Below are positions 20,874 through 24,761 of a stretch of DNA of 64,000 nucleotides, piece after piece. Location: assembly GCF_014274685.1 (NCBI RefSeq), contig NZ_CP060393.1:1113501-1177500 (forward strand), given 5' to 3'. The notes beneath the pieces are model-generated. The model saw only the letters and a program-made list of their open reading frames with translations, was not told where the DNA came from and searched no databases. The position numbers and the translations under genes are program-made. Numbering within the stretch: the stretch's first letter is position 1; each line of letters begins with the position of its first letter. The DNA is from Edaphobacter sp. 4G125. Its GTDB lineage: Bacteria > Acidobacteriota > Terriglobia > Terriglobales > Acidobacteriaceae.

Positions 20874-21057
20874 TCGATGCTCAGAGAGTGTTAGAACTCA
20901 CGAATAAGGCCTATTTTCTGTATTTGTCACAGGATTCTGCAGAAAAAGCCAAACTGCTCAGAACGATGTGTTCGAACTTTTCTGTGGGCGCCTCAAGTGC
21001 AACACCCACATACAGATATCCCTTCGACATCATTTTCAAGAGGGTCAAATGGAAGAA
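20852..21057 (+). pseudogene. C-terminal remnant of a large serine recombinase
   Basis: In the frame ending at the tRNA, the translation [18 protein letters not shown], then [36 protein letters not shown] closely follows the C-terminal end of large serine recombinases (LELANxAYxLYL ... PAEKARLLRxxLSN ... PTYRKPFDLI). The catalytic domain, zinc ribbon and coiled-coil core are absent and there is no proper start, so this is a decayed end of a once larger gene. It stops being recombinase-like exactly where the antisense tRNA-Pro begins; the open frame beyond is an artefact. It marks an old integration next to a tRNA. Confidence 0.6.
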
Positions 21058-21134
21058 TGGTCGGGGCGATTGGATTCGAACCAACGACCCCCTGCTCCCG
21101 AAGCAGGTGCGCTACCAGGCTGCGCTACGCCCCG
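21058..21134 (-). tRNA. tRNA-Pro (CGG)
   Basis: A full cloverleaf can be drawn on the minus strand: acceptor CGGGGCG with CGCCCCG, D-arm with GCGCAGCCTGGTAGCGC, anticodon stem CCTGC/GCAGG enclosing TTCGGGA (anticodon CGG), and T-arm with GGTTCGAATCC. The discriminator A is followed by an encoded CCA (21060-21058). It lies directly beside a recombinase remnant, as expected for an integration target. Confidence 0.95.
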
Positions 21135-21271
21135 ACTCTGTGCGGTAAGTGGCCGGAGAAGAATACGTTCCGCGATGTACAGAAAATCGGGCGAAGTTCG
21201 GGACCGCCTTGGATCTTCCTGCTGGAGCGCTGTTTCCGGCTGATTTAGTTTAGCAGACTTTCCGGCTCAGG
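21135..21271. other. Spacer between tRNA-Pro and the cys leader
   Basis: Upstream flank of tRNA-Pro on one strand and of the cys promoter on the other. The tRNA promoter should lie in the first 60 bases. No gene seen; with the leader that follows, it makes up the 353 bases between the tRNA and cysD. Confidence 0.5.
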
Positions 21272-21300
21272 TTGCAGGAGCCTCGGCAGGCTTCTATACT
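21272..21300 (+). promoter_or_regulatory. Putative promoter of the cysDNH leader
   Basis: TTGCAG (21272-21277), a 17-nt spacer, and TATACT (21295-21300). Transcription would start near 21306-21308, at or next to the ATG of the leader ORF at 21309, so the leader would be read from a leaderless mRNA. Confidence 0.45.
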
Positions 21301-21308
21301 TAACAGAG

Positions 21309-21383
21309 ATGGCGAACTTCGCTCAGCGTGCCTGTTGTTGTTGCCGGATGCTCCCGTGTCCGTGCGCGCGTTGTTGTCGATAA
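21309..21383 (+). CDS. Polycysteine leader peptide (cysteine attenuator)
   Basis: A 24-codon ORF with 8 cysteine codons: four in a row at residues 9-12, single ones at 17 and 19, and a pair at 22-23, ending at TAA. It is too short for normal gene finding. It lies 104 nt upstream of cysD, the first gene of the cysteine-supplying sulfate operon. By analogy with attenuator peptides, and with the polycysteine leaders described in mycobacteria, ribosome stalling on these codons when Cys-tRNA is scarce would change folding or Rho access downstream and raise cysDNH expression. No Shine-Dalgarno precedes it, which fits a leaderless start. The mechanism is inference; the codon content is direct. Confidence 0.72.
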   Translation: MANFAQRACCCCRMLPCPCARCCR

Positions 21384-21487
21384 CCGCGACCGCTATCTTT
21401 CCCCTCTACTTTTCCAGCTCTCTTGATTTTCAGCTCGGACACCCGGTGTGACATTTTGCCAGCGAGTCCGGAAGGTGACCCACCTAT
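21384..21487 (+). promoter_or_regulatory. Leader between polycysteine ORF and cysD
   Basis: Contains a pyrimidine-rich stretch with T-runs (about 21395-21430), a possible stem CTCGGAC (21434-21440) with GTCCG (21466-21470), and AGGTG-ACC-CACCT (21473-21485), which would pair the cysD ribosome site GGAAGGTG with bases just before the ATG. No classical terminator hairpin plus U-tract is evident, so Rho-dependent or translational control is possible. Confidence 0.4.
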
Positions 21488-22429
21488 ATGACCCAGACCG
21501 TTGCTCTTGAAGCCGATACCCTTCTCCAACCAGCCAGACTGAATCATCTGCAGGCTCTTGAAGCCGAAAGTATTGCCATTCTGCGCGAGGCGGTAGCGGA
21601 GTTTGCCCGGCCGGTGATGCTCTACTCCATCGGTAAGGATTCGAGCGTGATGCTGCGATTGGCGCAGAAGGCCTTCTATCCCGGAAAAATTCCGTTTCCT
21701 CTGCTGCATATCGATACCAGCTACAAGTTTCCCGAGATGATCTCTTTTCGTGATGACTATACGAAAGAGATTGGCGCGGAGCTGATCGTGCACAAGAATG
21801 AAGAGGCGCTTGCGGCGGGAGCGAATCCGTATACCCTTGGGACGCAGAACTGCTGCGGTCTGTTGAAGACTCGCAGCTTGCTGGATGGTCTGGCGGAAGG
21901 AAAGTTCGATGCTGCATTTGGCGGAGCTCGTCGCGATGAGGAAAAGAGCCGAGCCAAGGAGCGCGTCTACAGTTTTCGCGATGCTGCCGGTCAGTGGGAC
22001 CCGAAGAACCAGCGCCCCGAGCTGTGGAGCCTGTATAACTCGCGGTTGAAGAAGGGAGAGAGTATCCGTGTCTTTCCGCTCTCCAATTGGACGGAGCTTG
22101 ATATCTGGCTCTATCTCTATGCTGAGAAGATCCCGATCGTTCCCCTGTACTTTGCTACGGAGCGACCTGTGGTTATACGTGGTGGACAGATCACTCTCTA
22201 TTACGACGGCATGAAGCTTCTGCCCGGCGAAGAGGTGCGTACCGAAAAAGTTCGTATGCGTTCCCTCGGCTGCCACCCTTGCACGGGAGCGATCCGAAGC
22301 GAGGCGGATACACTGCCAAAGATTATCGAAGAGCTGTTGACCTTCCGAAGAAGTGAACGCGAAAACCGCGCCATCGACCACGACGAAGAGGGATCGATGG
22401 AGGTCAAGAAGCGGGAGGGATACTTCTAA
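21488..22429 (+). CDS. cysD: Sulfate adenylyltransferase subunit 2
   Basis: Small catalytic subunit of ATP sulfurylase, which activates sulfate with ATP to adenosine-5'-phosphosulfate (APS) in the cytoplasm with GTP hydrolysis by CysN. The PP-loop motif [11 protein letters not shown] is near residue 50; [29 protein letters not shown] and [10 protein letters not shown] are all typical, and the protein ends with the family's [10 protein letters not shown]. The length of 313 residues is standard. The stop codon overlaps the cysN start (TAATG). It is the first gene of cysD-cysN-cysH and lies behind a cysteine-rich leader ORF. Confidence 0.96.
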
Positions 22430-24069
22430 TGAGCGCGATTGTGACGGGATTTGAAGATTTTCTGGAGGCACATCTCGGCCAGGAGATGTTGCGTTTTACT
22501 ACCGCGGGAAGCGTGGATGATGGCAAGAGCACGCTGATCGGGCGCCTGCTGCACGATACGAAGAGCGTCTACGAGGATCAGCTTGCTGCGGTGAAGAAGA
22601 GCCGCGTGAACCGCGCTGCGAATGGTCATGTCGATCTTTCGTTGCTGACGGATGGTCTGAAGGCAGAGCGTGAGCAGGGCATTACGATTGATGTAGCTTA
22701 CCGCTACTTTTCCACTTCGCGACGAAAGTTCATCATTGCCGATACTCCTGGCCACGAGCAGTACACGCGCAACATGGCGACGGGAGCCTCAACCGCTGAT
22801 GTGGCTGTGGTGTTGATCGATGCCAACGCATTTCTGCGTGAGGGCAAGCTGCTGCCCCAGTCGCGCAGGCATACCTATATTGCGGCGCTGCTGGGAATCC
22901 CGCACGTCGTCGCCGCGGTGAACAAGATGGACCTGGTAGGCTACTCGGAAGAGAGCTTCCGGGCAATTCGCGCCGAGTTTGTGGAGTTTGCTTCGCGGTT
23001 AGGGCTGAAGAGCGTCACGGTTATTCCAGTCAGCGCGCTTGAGGGCGATAACGTCGTTACTCCAAGCCAAAAGATGTCGTGGTACGACGGGCCCACATTG
23101 CTGGAATTTCTGGAGACGGTGCCGCTGACGATTCATGATCATCACGGTCCCTTGCGGTTTCCCGTACAACTGGTGCAGCGGCCCCATGCGAACTTCCGTG
23201 GCTTTGCTGGTCAAGTCGCTCGCGGTGTATTGCGTGAAGGAGACCGTGTACTGGCGCTTCCTTCGCGGCGCGAGACGAAGGTACATCGCATTGTCACCTG
23301 GGATGGTGATCTGCAGATTGCCGCTTATCCACAGAGCGTGACGGTTGAGCTGGAAGACGAGATCGACCTGAGCCGGGGGGAGATGCTTGTCTCTGCCGAA
23401 CGCGAGCAGGACTTGCCCACGAGCGCACGACGGCTGCGCGCCATGGTGGTGTGGATGCACGAGGAGCCATTGGTCGTTGGGCGTACCTACGTTGCGAAGC
23501 ACACTACGCGAGTGGCACGGGCGAAGGTTACGGCGATTCGCTATCGTGTTGATGTGAACTCGCTGGAGCATGTTCAGACCGACCGATTGGCGATGAACGA
23601 GATCGCTGAGATCGAGTTTGAAACCAATCTTCCGCTCTTCTTCGATGCGTATACCGAGAGCAGGACGACGGGTTCGCTGATTTTGGTCGATGGTTTGACG
23701 AACGCGACCGTGGGCGCTGCGATGATCGTGGGCGCTGCGGAGAGCGCAGGCGAGGACGGTGAACAGGCAGCGCTGGTGCTGATACCGGGACGTGAAGATC
23801 TAGCGGATCGTGTACGCGATGCGCTGGAGGCTCGCGGGCAGCGCGCTGCAGTGATCGACGATGTATTGATTCCCGACGATGCTCTGGTGGCGGTTGTGCG
23901 TGCGTTGACTCTTGTTGGTGGGACCGCAATTACGGCGCGTGCCCTTTCGGTAGAAACGCAGGCGCAGCTTGTGCGTACGGTTGAGGCATTTGCCGACGGC
24001 AGGAAGGTTGTCGCGGGCAATACGTTGGAAGAAGACGAGGTTCTACGGCTTGCAGGAGCAAGGATATGA
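22429..24069 (+). CDS. cysN: Sulfate adenylyltransferase subunit 1 with degenerate CysC-like tail
   Basis: GTPase subunit of ATP sulfurylase. GTPase motifs are present: GSVDDGKST (residues 27-35), DTPGHEQYTRNM, NKMD; the beta-barrel domains follow and the CysN core ends at LVDGLTNATVGAAMIVG near residue 435. A further 111 residues remain, longer than a plain CysN. The tail aligns by eye with APS kinase (LADRVRDALEARGQRAAVIDD, then a helix and GGTAITARALS), but it lacks the P-loop and is some 60-80 residues short, so kinase activity is unlikely. Since CysH here is of the APS-using type, a PAPS-making kinase would not be needed. The end overlaps cysH by 4 nt. Confidence 0.92.
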   Translation: MSAIVTGFEDFLEAHLGQEMLRFTTAGSVDDGKSTLIGRLLHDTKSVYEDQLAAVKKSRVNRAANGHVDLSLLTDGLKAEREQGITIDVAYRYFSTSRRKFIIADTPGHEQYTRNMATGASTADVAVVLIDANAFLREGKLLPQSRRHTYIAALLGIPHVVAAVNKMDLVGYSEESFRAIRAEFVEFASRLGLKSVTVIPVSALEGDNVVTPSQKMSWYDGPTLLEFLETVPLTIHDHHGPLRFPVQLVQRPHANFRGFAGQVARGVLREGDRVLALPSRRETKVHRIVTWDGDLQIAAYPQSVTVELEDEIDLSRGEMLVSAEREQDLPTSARRLRAMVVWMHEEPLVVGRTYVAKHTTRVARAKVTAIRYRVDVNSLEHVQTDRLAMNEIAEIEFETNLPLFFDAYTESRTTGSLILVDGLTNATVGAAMIVGAAESAGEDGEQAALVLIPGREDLADRVRDALEARGQRAAVIDDVLIPDDALVAVVRALTLVGGTAITARALSVETQAQLVRTVEAFADGRKVVAGNTLEEDEVLRLAGARI

Positions 24070-24761
24070 GCGTGATCGATTCGGCAGTGGACTATGAGGC
24101 TTTGACTGCAGAAGCGCTGGTGGACCAGGTGGTGCAGGCCGCTGCAAAGGGTTCAGTGTGCCTGACTTCAAGTTTTCAAACGGAGGACATGGTCGCTCTG
24201 CACATGCTACGCAAGCATCTTCCCGATGTTCCGGTGATCTTTCTGGAGACCGGATACCACTTCGCCGAGGTGATCGCGTATCGCGACCGCATGACAGCAG
24301 AGTGGGGTTTGAACCTGGTCAACGCTCTACCCACGACGACGGTGAAGGAGTTCGAAGGGCAGTTCGGAATTCTGAATATCGTGAATCCTACGGCGTGCTG
24401 CGCGGCGCGCAAGGTGGAGCCCTTGATGCGTTCGCTCGAGCCGTTTGACTGGTGGTTTACCGGGCTGCGGCGTGAGCAGTCTCCGACTCGAGCCAATCTC
24501 AAGAAGGTTGAGGACCACAAGCTGCCTACAGGAAGACACCTGAAGAAGATCAGCGTGTTGGCCGACTGGGATTGGGCGCGCGTAACTGAGTACGCTGAGC
24601 GCGAAGGGATTCCACAGCTGGAGCTTTATGCTCGCGGATACACCAGCATTGGGTGCGAGCCCTGCACTGCGATTCCAGCCGCAGGAGCGGATGCACGCAG
24701 TGGACGCTGGGGCGGCCAGAAGCTGGAGTGCGGCATCCACACCTTCTCAGAGAAGAGCTAG
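24066..24761 (+). CDS. cysH: Adenylyl-sulfate (APS) reductase
   Basis: Reduces APS to sulfite and AMP with thioredoxin-type electrons. The 231-residue protein has the PP-loop-like SSFQTEDM, LETGYHF, the CC pair at residues 111-112 and CxxC at 197-200 that bind a 4Fe-4S cluster, and the catalytic Cys222 in ECGIH. The cluster cysteines mark the APS-using group, as opposed to cluster-free PAPS reductases, so cysC is not needed. The start ATG overlaps the cysN stop. It closes the operon; sulfite reductase is not in the window. Confidence 0.95.
   Translation: MSVIDSAVDYEALTAEALVDQVVQAAAKGSVCLTSSFQTEDMVALHMLRKHLPDVPVIFLETGYHFAEVIAYRDRMTAEWGLNLVNALPTTTVKEFEGQFGILNIVNPTACCAARKVEPLMRSLEPFDWWFTGLRREQSPTRANLKKVEDHKLPTGRHLKKISVLADWDWARVTEYAEREGIPQLELYARGYTSIGCEPCTAIPAAGADARSGRWGGQKLECGIHTFSEKS

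Follow-up and report, generated by a model that had tools for sequence, protein, structure and literature searches.

Leader ORF, promoter and operon organization

The window analysed here, a 64,000-nt stretch of the genome of Edaphobacter sp. 4G125, contains the cysDNH operon, directly upstream of which lies a short ORF with runs of codons for cysteine, the end product of the operon. The features of the locus are listed below.

21272..21277, plus strand: -35 element TTGCAG, assigned by sequence (several relatives of the same genus likewise have TTGCNN with 17-nt spacing)
21295..21300, plus strand: -10 element TATACT, ending 8 nt upstream of the leader ATG, assigned by sequence and conservation
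21309..21383, plus strand: leader ORF MANFAQRACCCCRMLPCPCARCCR, 24 codons, Cys-rich and predicted to be leaderless, from Cys enrichment and frame conservation
21384..21433, plus strand: C-rich, G-poor tract directly 3′ of the leader stop, a putative Rho-loading (rut-like) region
21470..21478, plus strand: Shine-Dalgarno-like GGAAGGTGA of cysD, by sequence
21488..22429, plus strand: cysD, sulfate adenylyltransferase subunit 2 (Pfam PAPS_reduct domain)
22429..24069, plus strand: cysN, sulfate adenylyltransferase GTPase subunit (Pfam GTP_EFTU)
24066..24761, plus strand: cysH, APS/PAPS reductase (Pfam PAPS_reduct)

The ends of cysD, cysN and cysH overlap, and the leader ORF ends 104 nt upstream of cysD. 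A first-pass annotation of this DNA had described the ORF at 21309-21383 as encoding 8 Cys in 24 residues, four of them consecutive, and the sequence and its translation agree: the Cys codons are TGT TGT TGT TGC (21333-21344), followed by TGT, TGC and TGT TGT, with six of the eight being UGU. The promoter that it had named, TTGCAG-N17-TATACT, is likewise present at 21272-21300. Because TATACT ends 8 nt before the ATG, translation is predicted to start near the 5′ end of the mRNA; with the usual promoter spacing, transcription would begin near 21307, 2 nt upstream of the leader ATG, which would then start at about the third transcribed base. A promoter scan of 20900-21700 reported no site. TTGCAG falls below the threshold of the scan since it matches TTGACA at only 3/6 positions, and support for the promoter comes from the conserved -10 spacing in relatives.

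The four-Cys-codon pattern had 39 matches in the genome, versus 24 for a reversed control (overlaps counted and frames ignored), and only the cysD leader among them has a start codon behind a -10 box with 5/6 matches, the others reaching at most 4/6. Genome-wide searches with four-Cys runs or with the peptide itself found no leader beyond that of cysD.

A tRNA-Pro gene (anticodon CGG; 21058-21134, minus strand) lies just upstream of the leader in divergent orientation, and a weak terminator-like site occurs on the plus strand at 21221-21240, upstream of the leader promoter. The ORF finder also lists a 382-codon frame antisense to cysD and the leader (21323-22471, minus strand), which in our view is a codon-bias artefact. 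CysH (24066-24761) contains CCxxRK and CxxC motifs, presumably like those of iron-sulfur APS reductases, and because of this resemblance the pathway may skip PAPS.

Cysteine-rich leaders upstream of cysD in relatives

A search for CysD gave matches in 43 of 61 relatives and in 237 of 399 class genomes at E ≤ 1e-60, and 193 upstream regions were compiled from 113 fetched and 80 named loci (15 acidobacterial, 65 from other phyla). Among the family labels used here, f1 is the family of the window; it holds Terriglobus, Granulicella and Edaphobacter, and we take it to be Acidobacteriaceae. Short Cys-dense ORFs upstream of cysD were compared with dinucleotide shuffles at p ≤ 0.01. The excess over shuffles was found in 43/67 f1 loci, 7/14 f7 loci, 2/4 f2 loci and 5 of the 15 named acidobacterial loci, versus 0/1 in f4, 0/1 in f9 and, in the controls, 0/26 in f6 and 1/65 in other phyla; as the sequences are related, these figures describe a contrast between groups and are not independent probabilities. 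ORFs with an open frame longer than 60 codons were dropped by the script, so the counts are lowered; L007 is one of the loci hidden in this way. At a threshold of 0.05, 19 of the 67 f1 loci showed no excess over shuffles, and a looser criterion (at least three Cys in 20 residues) kept 62 of the 67 as carriers. Named carriers include Terriglobus albidus (L115), Granulicella sp. dw_53 (L121) and Edaphobacter lichenicola (L128), of which L115 repeats L044, L121 repeats L021 and L128 nearly repeats L026. The 13-residue leader of T. albidus, with 3 Cys, is not above shuffles when taken alone.

For the counts of terminators, pairing, codons and composition, 86 of the 128 acidobacterial cysD loci were kept. 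We manually excluded 35 outgroup-like loci (L020, L084-L111, L113, L118, L120, L122, L125 and L126), L056 and L059 were also removed by hand, and five further loci with fewer than three Cys (L041, L045, L050, L060 and L114) have no leader by the criteria used. L118 may carry a leader, and L060, a second cysD copy, shares its genome with L061, which does have a leader. In L057, the 9-nt unit gcagagtac forms a short tandem repeat just 5′ of the leader start. Eighteen of 20 extra f7 loci have an ORF with at least three Cys in 20 residues, L239 and L242 have none, and L250 is misplaced.

The leaders range from 13 to about 35 residues, some starts being uncertain, and their non-Cys residues vary widely between lineages. 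The search proposed by the first-pass annotation, for a Cys-rich short ORF with otherwise variable residues upstream of cysD in other Terriglobia, thus had a positive outcome. On these comparisons the leader is more than a product of chance, and what is conserved is a reading frame with Cys codons rather than a particular peptide.

In a CysD tree of L001-L053, the genus of the window contains two CysD lineages, both with Cys leaders, one grouping with f2 and f6 rows and the other with f7. It may be that leaders were acquired on more than one occasion, or that they moved along with the operon. Two Cys-rich short ORFs upstream of cysD were also seen in a Mariprofundus (L150, -261 to -180 from the cysD match, 6 Cys in 20 residues) and in a Bacteroidales MAG (L192, -323 to -233 from the cysD match, 5 Cys in 20 residues), perhaps by chance.

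Predicted leaderless layout, reading frame and codon choice

To keep the choice of start from biasing the result, promoter position was assessed at 42 loci where a single in-frame ATG precedes the first Cys pair. A -10 box (at least 4/6 matches, A2 and T6 included, and its end 5-11 nt upstream of the ATG) precedes 27 of these 42 leader ATGs, versus 15 of 218 other ATGs in the same regions. An exact TTGACA at 17 nt spacing is present in 6 of the 42, five of which have a weaker -10 box that fails the count. Mean Shine-Dalgarno-like scores were 2.29 for leader ATGs, which show no elevation, 2.84 for other ATGs and 3.56 for cysD starts.

The reading frame was assessed by locating the TGY window of highest density, whatever its frame, independently of the promoter-proximal ATG, with 41 of 81 loci being usable. 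The Cys run was in frame with the promoter-proximal ATG, with no stop between them, in 39/41 loci (one third expected), the exceptions being L013 and L026. Because the frame is kept, translation from the 5′ end is favoured over a mere UGU-rich RNA motif. These comparisons support a conserved leaderless layout; the leaderless start put forward in the first-pass annotation is a prediction from sequence that gains weight from the conserved -10 spacing and the promoter-proximal frame.

The leaders differ from the genes in codon choice. TGT and TGC number 410 and 119 in the 86 kept cysD leaders, versus 17 and 208 in 53 cysD genes; for sulfite reductase, considered below, the TGT:TGC ratio is 90:57 in 27 leaders versus 16:275 in 30 genes. 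Seven chosen genes of the window contain 3 TGT and 20 TGC. Rare codons serve likewise in other leader peptides. We read UGU as a slower or more charge-sensitive codon, and its preference suggests a sensor tuned by codon choice.

Predicted terminators and antiterminators in relatives

A script identified a hairpin followed by a U-tract in 36 of the 86 kept cysD leaders, and in 34 of these 36 the U-tract lies 57-74 nt from the leader stop codon. The calls were edited by eye, with six added and two struck out (L006 and L012). In f7, 11 of the 12 kept cysD loci have a terminator by script and the twelfth by eye.

Pairing between the 3′ part of the leader ORF and the 5′ arm of the terminator, which would form an antiterminator, was compared with shuffled ORF pieces; L057 was left out. 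Across 33 cysD leaders with terminators, the mean z was -1.62 and 14 reached p ≤ 0.05, as did 7 of 12 in f7. For instance, CCTCTGGC pairs with GCCAGAGG in L083 (p 0.065), and TCTGGCG pairs with CGCCAGA in L077 (p 0.015). Thirteen of the 20 extra f7 loci entered the f7-type alignments A2 and A3, while L079 and L080 were read outside the alignments. Two f7-type alignments, of 15 and 10 sequences, retain the antiterminator helix in 91% and 84% of cells and the terminator in 98% and 94%, versus 21-59% when slid. Counts of compensatory changes in f7 subgroups showed conserved pairing with almost no covariation, so the case for the f7 helix rests on conservation.

This layout in relatives fits attenuation of the trp/his type. 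The leaders of f7 and others share with trp/his attenuators the regulatory codons, the U-tract spacing and partial complementarity between ORF and terminator, but differ in that the leader ORF is apparently leaderless and that the copy in the window has neither terminator nor antiterminator. No intrinsic terminator was found in the window leader or for the 23 CysD rows that share its clade, and in the window there is accordingly no terminator for the ORF to pair with. On a tree of 53 CysD rows, the terminator label needs four changes.

A second leader upstream of sulfite reductase

The genome of the window encodes another Cys leader, MASDRAHLASLCRMCCCDRVRCRLCPAS, upstream of a ferredoxin-type sulfite reductase gene (L258, L260). 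It was found by inspecting sulfur genes and not through the search for Cys runs. Its promoter, TTGACG-N17-TACCCT, lies 11 nt upstream of the leader ATG, and the ORF is followed by CCCACTCCACTCGAGTGGG-ATTTTTATT, a predicted intrinsic terminator, and then by the sulfite reductase gene.

Among 200 class genomes, 54 yielded relatives of this gene, and 50 loci were read (one of them, L305, being a doubtful assignment). A leader with at least three Cys in 20 residues is present in 47 of the 50; L285-L287 have no Cys-rich leader by the criteria used. Terminators were recognized in 46 of the 47 leaders, the doubtful L305 among them; in L277 the script found none. ORF-terminator pairing reached p ≤ 0.05 in 9/46 (mean z -0.72), namely in 6 of 13 f7/f5 loci and in 3 f1 loci of other genera. 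No antiterminator signal was obtained for the sulfite reductase leaders of the genus of the window (0/20 at p ≤ 0.05), with a z of -0.08 for the leader of this genome. The sulfite reductase terminators therefore look clear, and antiterminators are predicted only in part.

We also inspected matches to sulfate permease, a second NIR_SIR gene and the cysK, cysE and CysRS types, and in the 13 of 17 matches that were scanned none had a Cys-rich ORF behind a convincing -10 box. The best other candidate, upstream of L311, has 4 Cys and a -10 match of only 1/6. No Cys leader was seen before cysS (L320) in this genome.

Alternative explanations

The high Cys content and conserved place of the ORF would also suit a working small protein, metal- or thiol-binding, with no role as a cis-acting sensor. 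Its length and non-Cys residues differ widely between lineages, however, five leaders tried gave no Pfam or NCBIfam match, the UGU bias is opposite to that of genes, and many relatives have terminators downstream, all of which make a protein function very improbable. Conservation of TGT repeats among close relatives might instead reflect an RNA or DNA motif of repeated UGU bound by a factor, with the reading frame being incidental; this is slightly less probable still, as both TGT and TGC occur at Cys positions and the Cys codons are open and in frame with the promoter-proximal ATG in nearly every locus of the frame comparison. Least probable of all is a known riboswitch or T-box, or a chance ORF without regulation: searches of the window (20900-21600) and six loci gave no Rfam match save the neighbouring tRNA, and the control comparisons of Cys enrichment, promoter and frame argue against chance.

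Cys-responsive attenuation could itself act at the level of translation, with ribosome passage allowing a stem to hide the cysD ribosome site and a stalled ribosome freeing it, as the first-pass annotation had envisaged. Such a stem, TCGGAC/GTCCGG, can indeed be drawn beside the cysD ribosome site of the window, and a 2026 paper (PMC13236596), in the sections accessible, cites mycobacterial cysteine genes as being under translation attenuation. The predicted exposure of the cysD ribosome site is nonetheless independent of ribosome position (mean 0.48 with the ribosome stalled vs 0.49 with it at the stop; 17 loci including the window), the leader RNA of the window folds no better than shuffles (z +0.59), and neither the predicted folds of relatives nor a five-sequence alignment contained a conserved stem. 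We consider masking of the ribosome site unlikely and rank it below Rho-dependent attenuation for the window leader. From the first-pass annotation as a whole, the Cys leader and its predicted leaderless layout are supported, the stem over the ribosome site is not, and the output of many relatives looks terminator-like.

Two further pairings were considered for the RNA. Complementarity between GTGTCCG in the ORF and CGGACAC downstream of it suggested a masking model for the window, which relatives did not bear out, and pairing of the ORF with the tract after the stop was rejected, this pairing being weaker than in shuffles (mean z +0.63, 27 loci).

Possible output step of the window leader

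The pyrimidine-rich stretch that had been pointed out downstream of the ORF is real and recurs in the clade. Over the 30 nt after the stop, C minus G is +0.29 in 46 terminator-less leaders, versus +0.13 in 40 leaders with terminators; 27 sulfite reductase leaders, at +0.18, have some C excess as well. Closer to cysD the excess fades, to +0.03 over the final 45 nt (27 loci), and 50-nt pieces at similar distances before cysD in 26 f6 and 65 other-phylum loci range from -0.03 to +0.05. A C-rich, G-poor, unstructured composition is typical of Rho-loading sites. By composition, the tract after the leader stop answers to this, and rho is encoded in the genome. Given the lack of a terminator, the lack of predicted masking, the C-rich tract and the presence of Rho, Rho-dependent attenuation is tentatively the likeliest output step of the window leader.

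The arrangement recalls tnaC of E. coli, a Rho-dependent attenuator, in that a candidate Rho tract lies directly 3′ of the leader stop and Rho is encoded, but here uncharged tRNA-Cys would be the signal, in place of a ligand recognized together with the nascent peptide. The mean distance from the last Cys codon to the stop is 1.74 residues, versus 2.45 when permuted (27 loci), and this only slight nearness makes the tnaC-like stalling step weak.

Proposed mechanism

We interpret the leader as a Cys-responsive leader-peptide attenuator, with a probability of about 0.8; the leaders of relatives, the conserved layout and the sulfite reductase leader lend support to this interpretation, which the first-pass annotation had offered. 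Transcription would start about 2 nt before the ATG, and the ribosome would begin at the very 5′ end of the mRNA, a start that we infer because of the conserved promoter spacing and frame. It would then face 8 Cys codons, and six of these are UGU, a codon that is rare in the genes. With ample Cys-tRNA, the ribosome would run through and leave at the stop, and expression of cysDNH would be cut off in the leader; with scarce Cys-tRNA, it would stall on the Cys codons and cysDNH would be expressed. The direction of this response is taken from the trp/his model.

The cut-off step would vary by lineage. An intrinsic terminator seems to fill this role in the f7 leaders, in some of the f1 cysD leaders and in almost every sulfite reductase leader that was read; some of these terminator-bearing leaders have an ORF whose 3′ end could pair with the 5′ arm of the terminator as an antiterminator. 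In the clade of the window, Rho would load on the C-rich, G-poor tract adjoining the stop codon and terminate transcription, unless a ribosome stalled on the last Cys codons denies it the site, as in tnaC. This last step is plausible, at somewhat less than even odds. We also suggest, with similar reserve, that cysteine attenuation in Terriglobia governs two or more operons, among them cysDNH and sulfite reductase, as one regulon whose leaderless UGU sensor has stayed constant and whose output has been exchanged in evolution. The corresponding outputs, a terminator with antiterminator in some lineages together with a Rho tract beside the stop in that of the window, form a joint proposal to which we would give slightly under half the weight.

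Comparison with known systems and implications

Cys-rich leaderless uORFs have been described in mycobacteria (Shell et al., 2015, in the portion accessible), and later papers, as far as their accessible text goes, cite Canestrari et al. (2020) for polycysteine leaderless sORFs. Two of these, the 2026 paper (PMC13236596) and a 2022 review, refer in the same limited text to the 2020 work as translation attenuation and as translational regulation by attenuation, respectively. Going by these excerpts, the leaders described here have in common with the mycobacterial ones a leaderless sORF with consecutive Cys codons placed first in a cysteine or sulfur operon, and the version in the window likewise has no intrinsic terminator. 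The mycobacterial trait of an ATG within a few nt of the transcription start is here predicted from the conserved -10 spacing. Measured against the same excerpts, our leaders differ in belonging to another phylum, in the intrinsic terminators predicted for many relatives and for the sulfite reductase leader of the same genome, and in a strong UGU preference without predicted masking of the ribosome site.

Cys leader peptides without terminators were predicted in Mycobacterium, Propionibacterium and Bifidobacterium by Seliverstov et al. (2005; PMC1262725), whose accessible passages suggest Rho by analogy with tna and propose pyrimidine motifs, described as not conserved, as Rho sites. Cys runs near the stop and the lack of a terminator are common to those actinobacterial leaders and the present one. 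In the present set, unlike those passages, the C-rich, G-poor composition is a tendency across terminator-less leaders that contrasts with terminator-bearing ones. The available part of a 2021 RNA motif survey (PMC8632094) places uORFC-8-2 before cysS in Rhodobacterales and proposes ribosome-mediated attenuation; that motif also couples a uORF that contains Cys codons to an intrinsic terminator, but it has two tandem Cys codons, precedes a cysteinyl-tRNA synthetase gene and belongs to another phylum.

Leaderless genes have been estimated at 13.3% on average in three Acidobacteria. Our literature search, which had most subscription papers and all preprints outside its scope, gave no report of such a leader in Acidobacteriota among the matches listed. 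Within the literature consulted, and as far as its accessible text extends, attenuation by cysteine leaders has so far been linked to Actinobacteria and predicted before cysS of Rhodobacterales.

In conclusion, the leader ORF is real, conserved and very probably regulatory, judging by the sequence comparisons, and the scheme known from mycobacteria appears in Acidobacteriota too. Cysteine leaders are spread through a class of soil bacteria in an apparently leaderless form, with textbook-like terminators in relatives. If our interpretation is true, one class would display both the classical scheme and the Rho scheme, the latter having been proposed and being unproven for mycobacteria. Comparison of closely related species makes it testable how a terminator-less leader attenuates, and how the output changes while the sensor is kept. 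What makes the leader interesting is that, within a single bacterial class, the sensor and the output seem to have separated.
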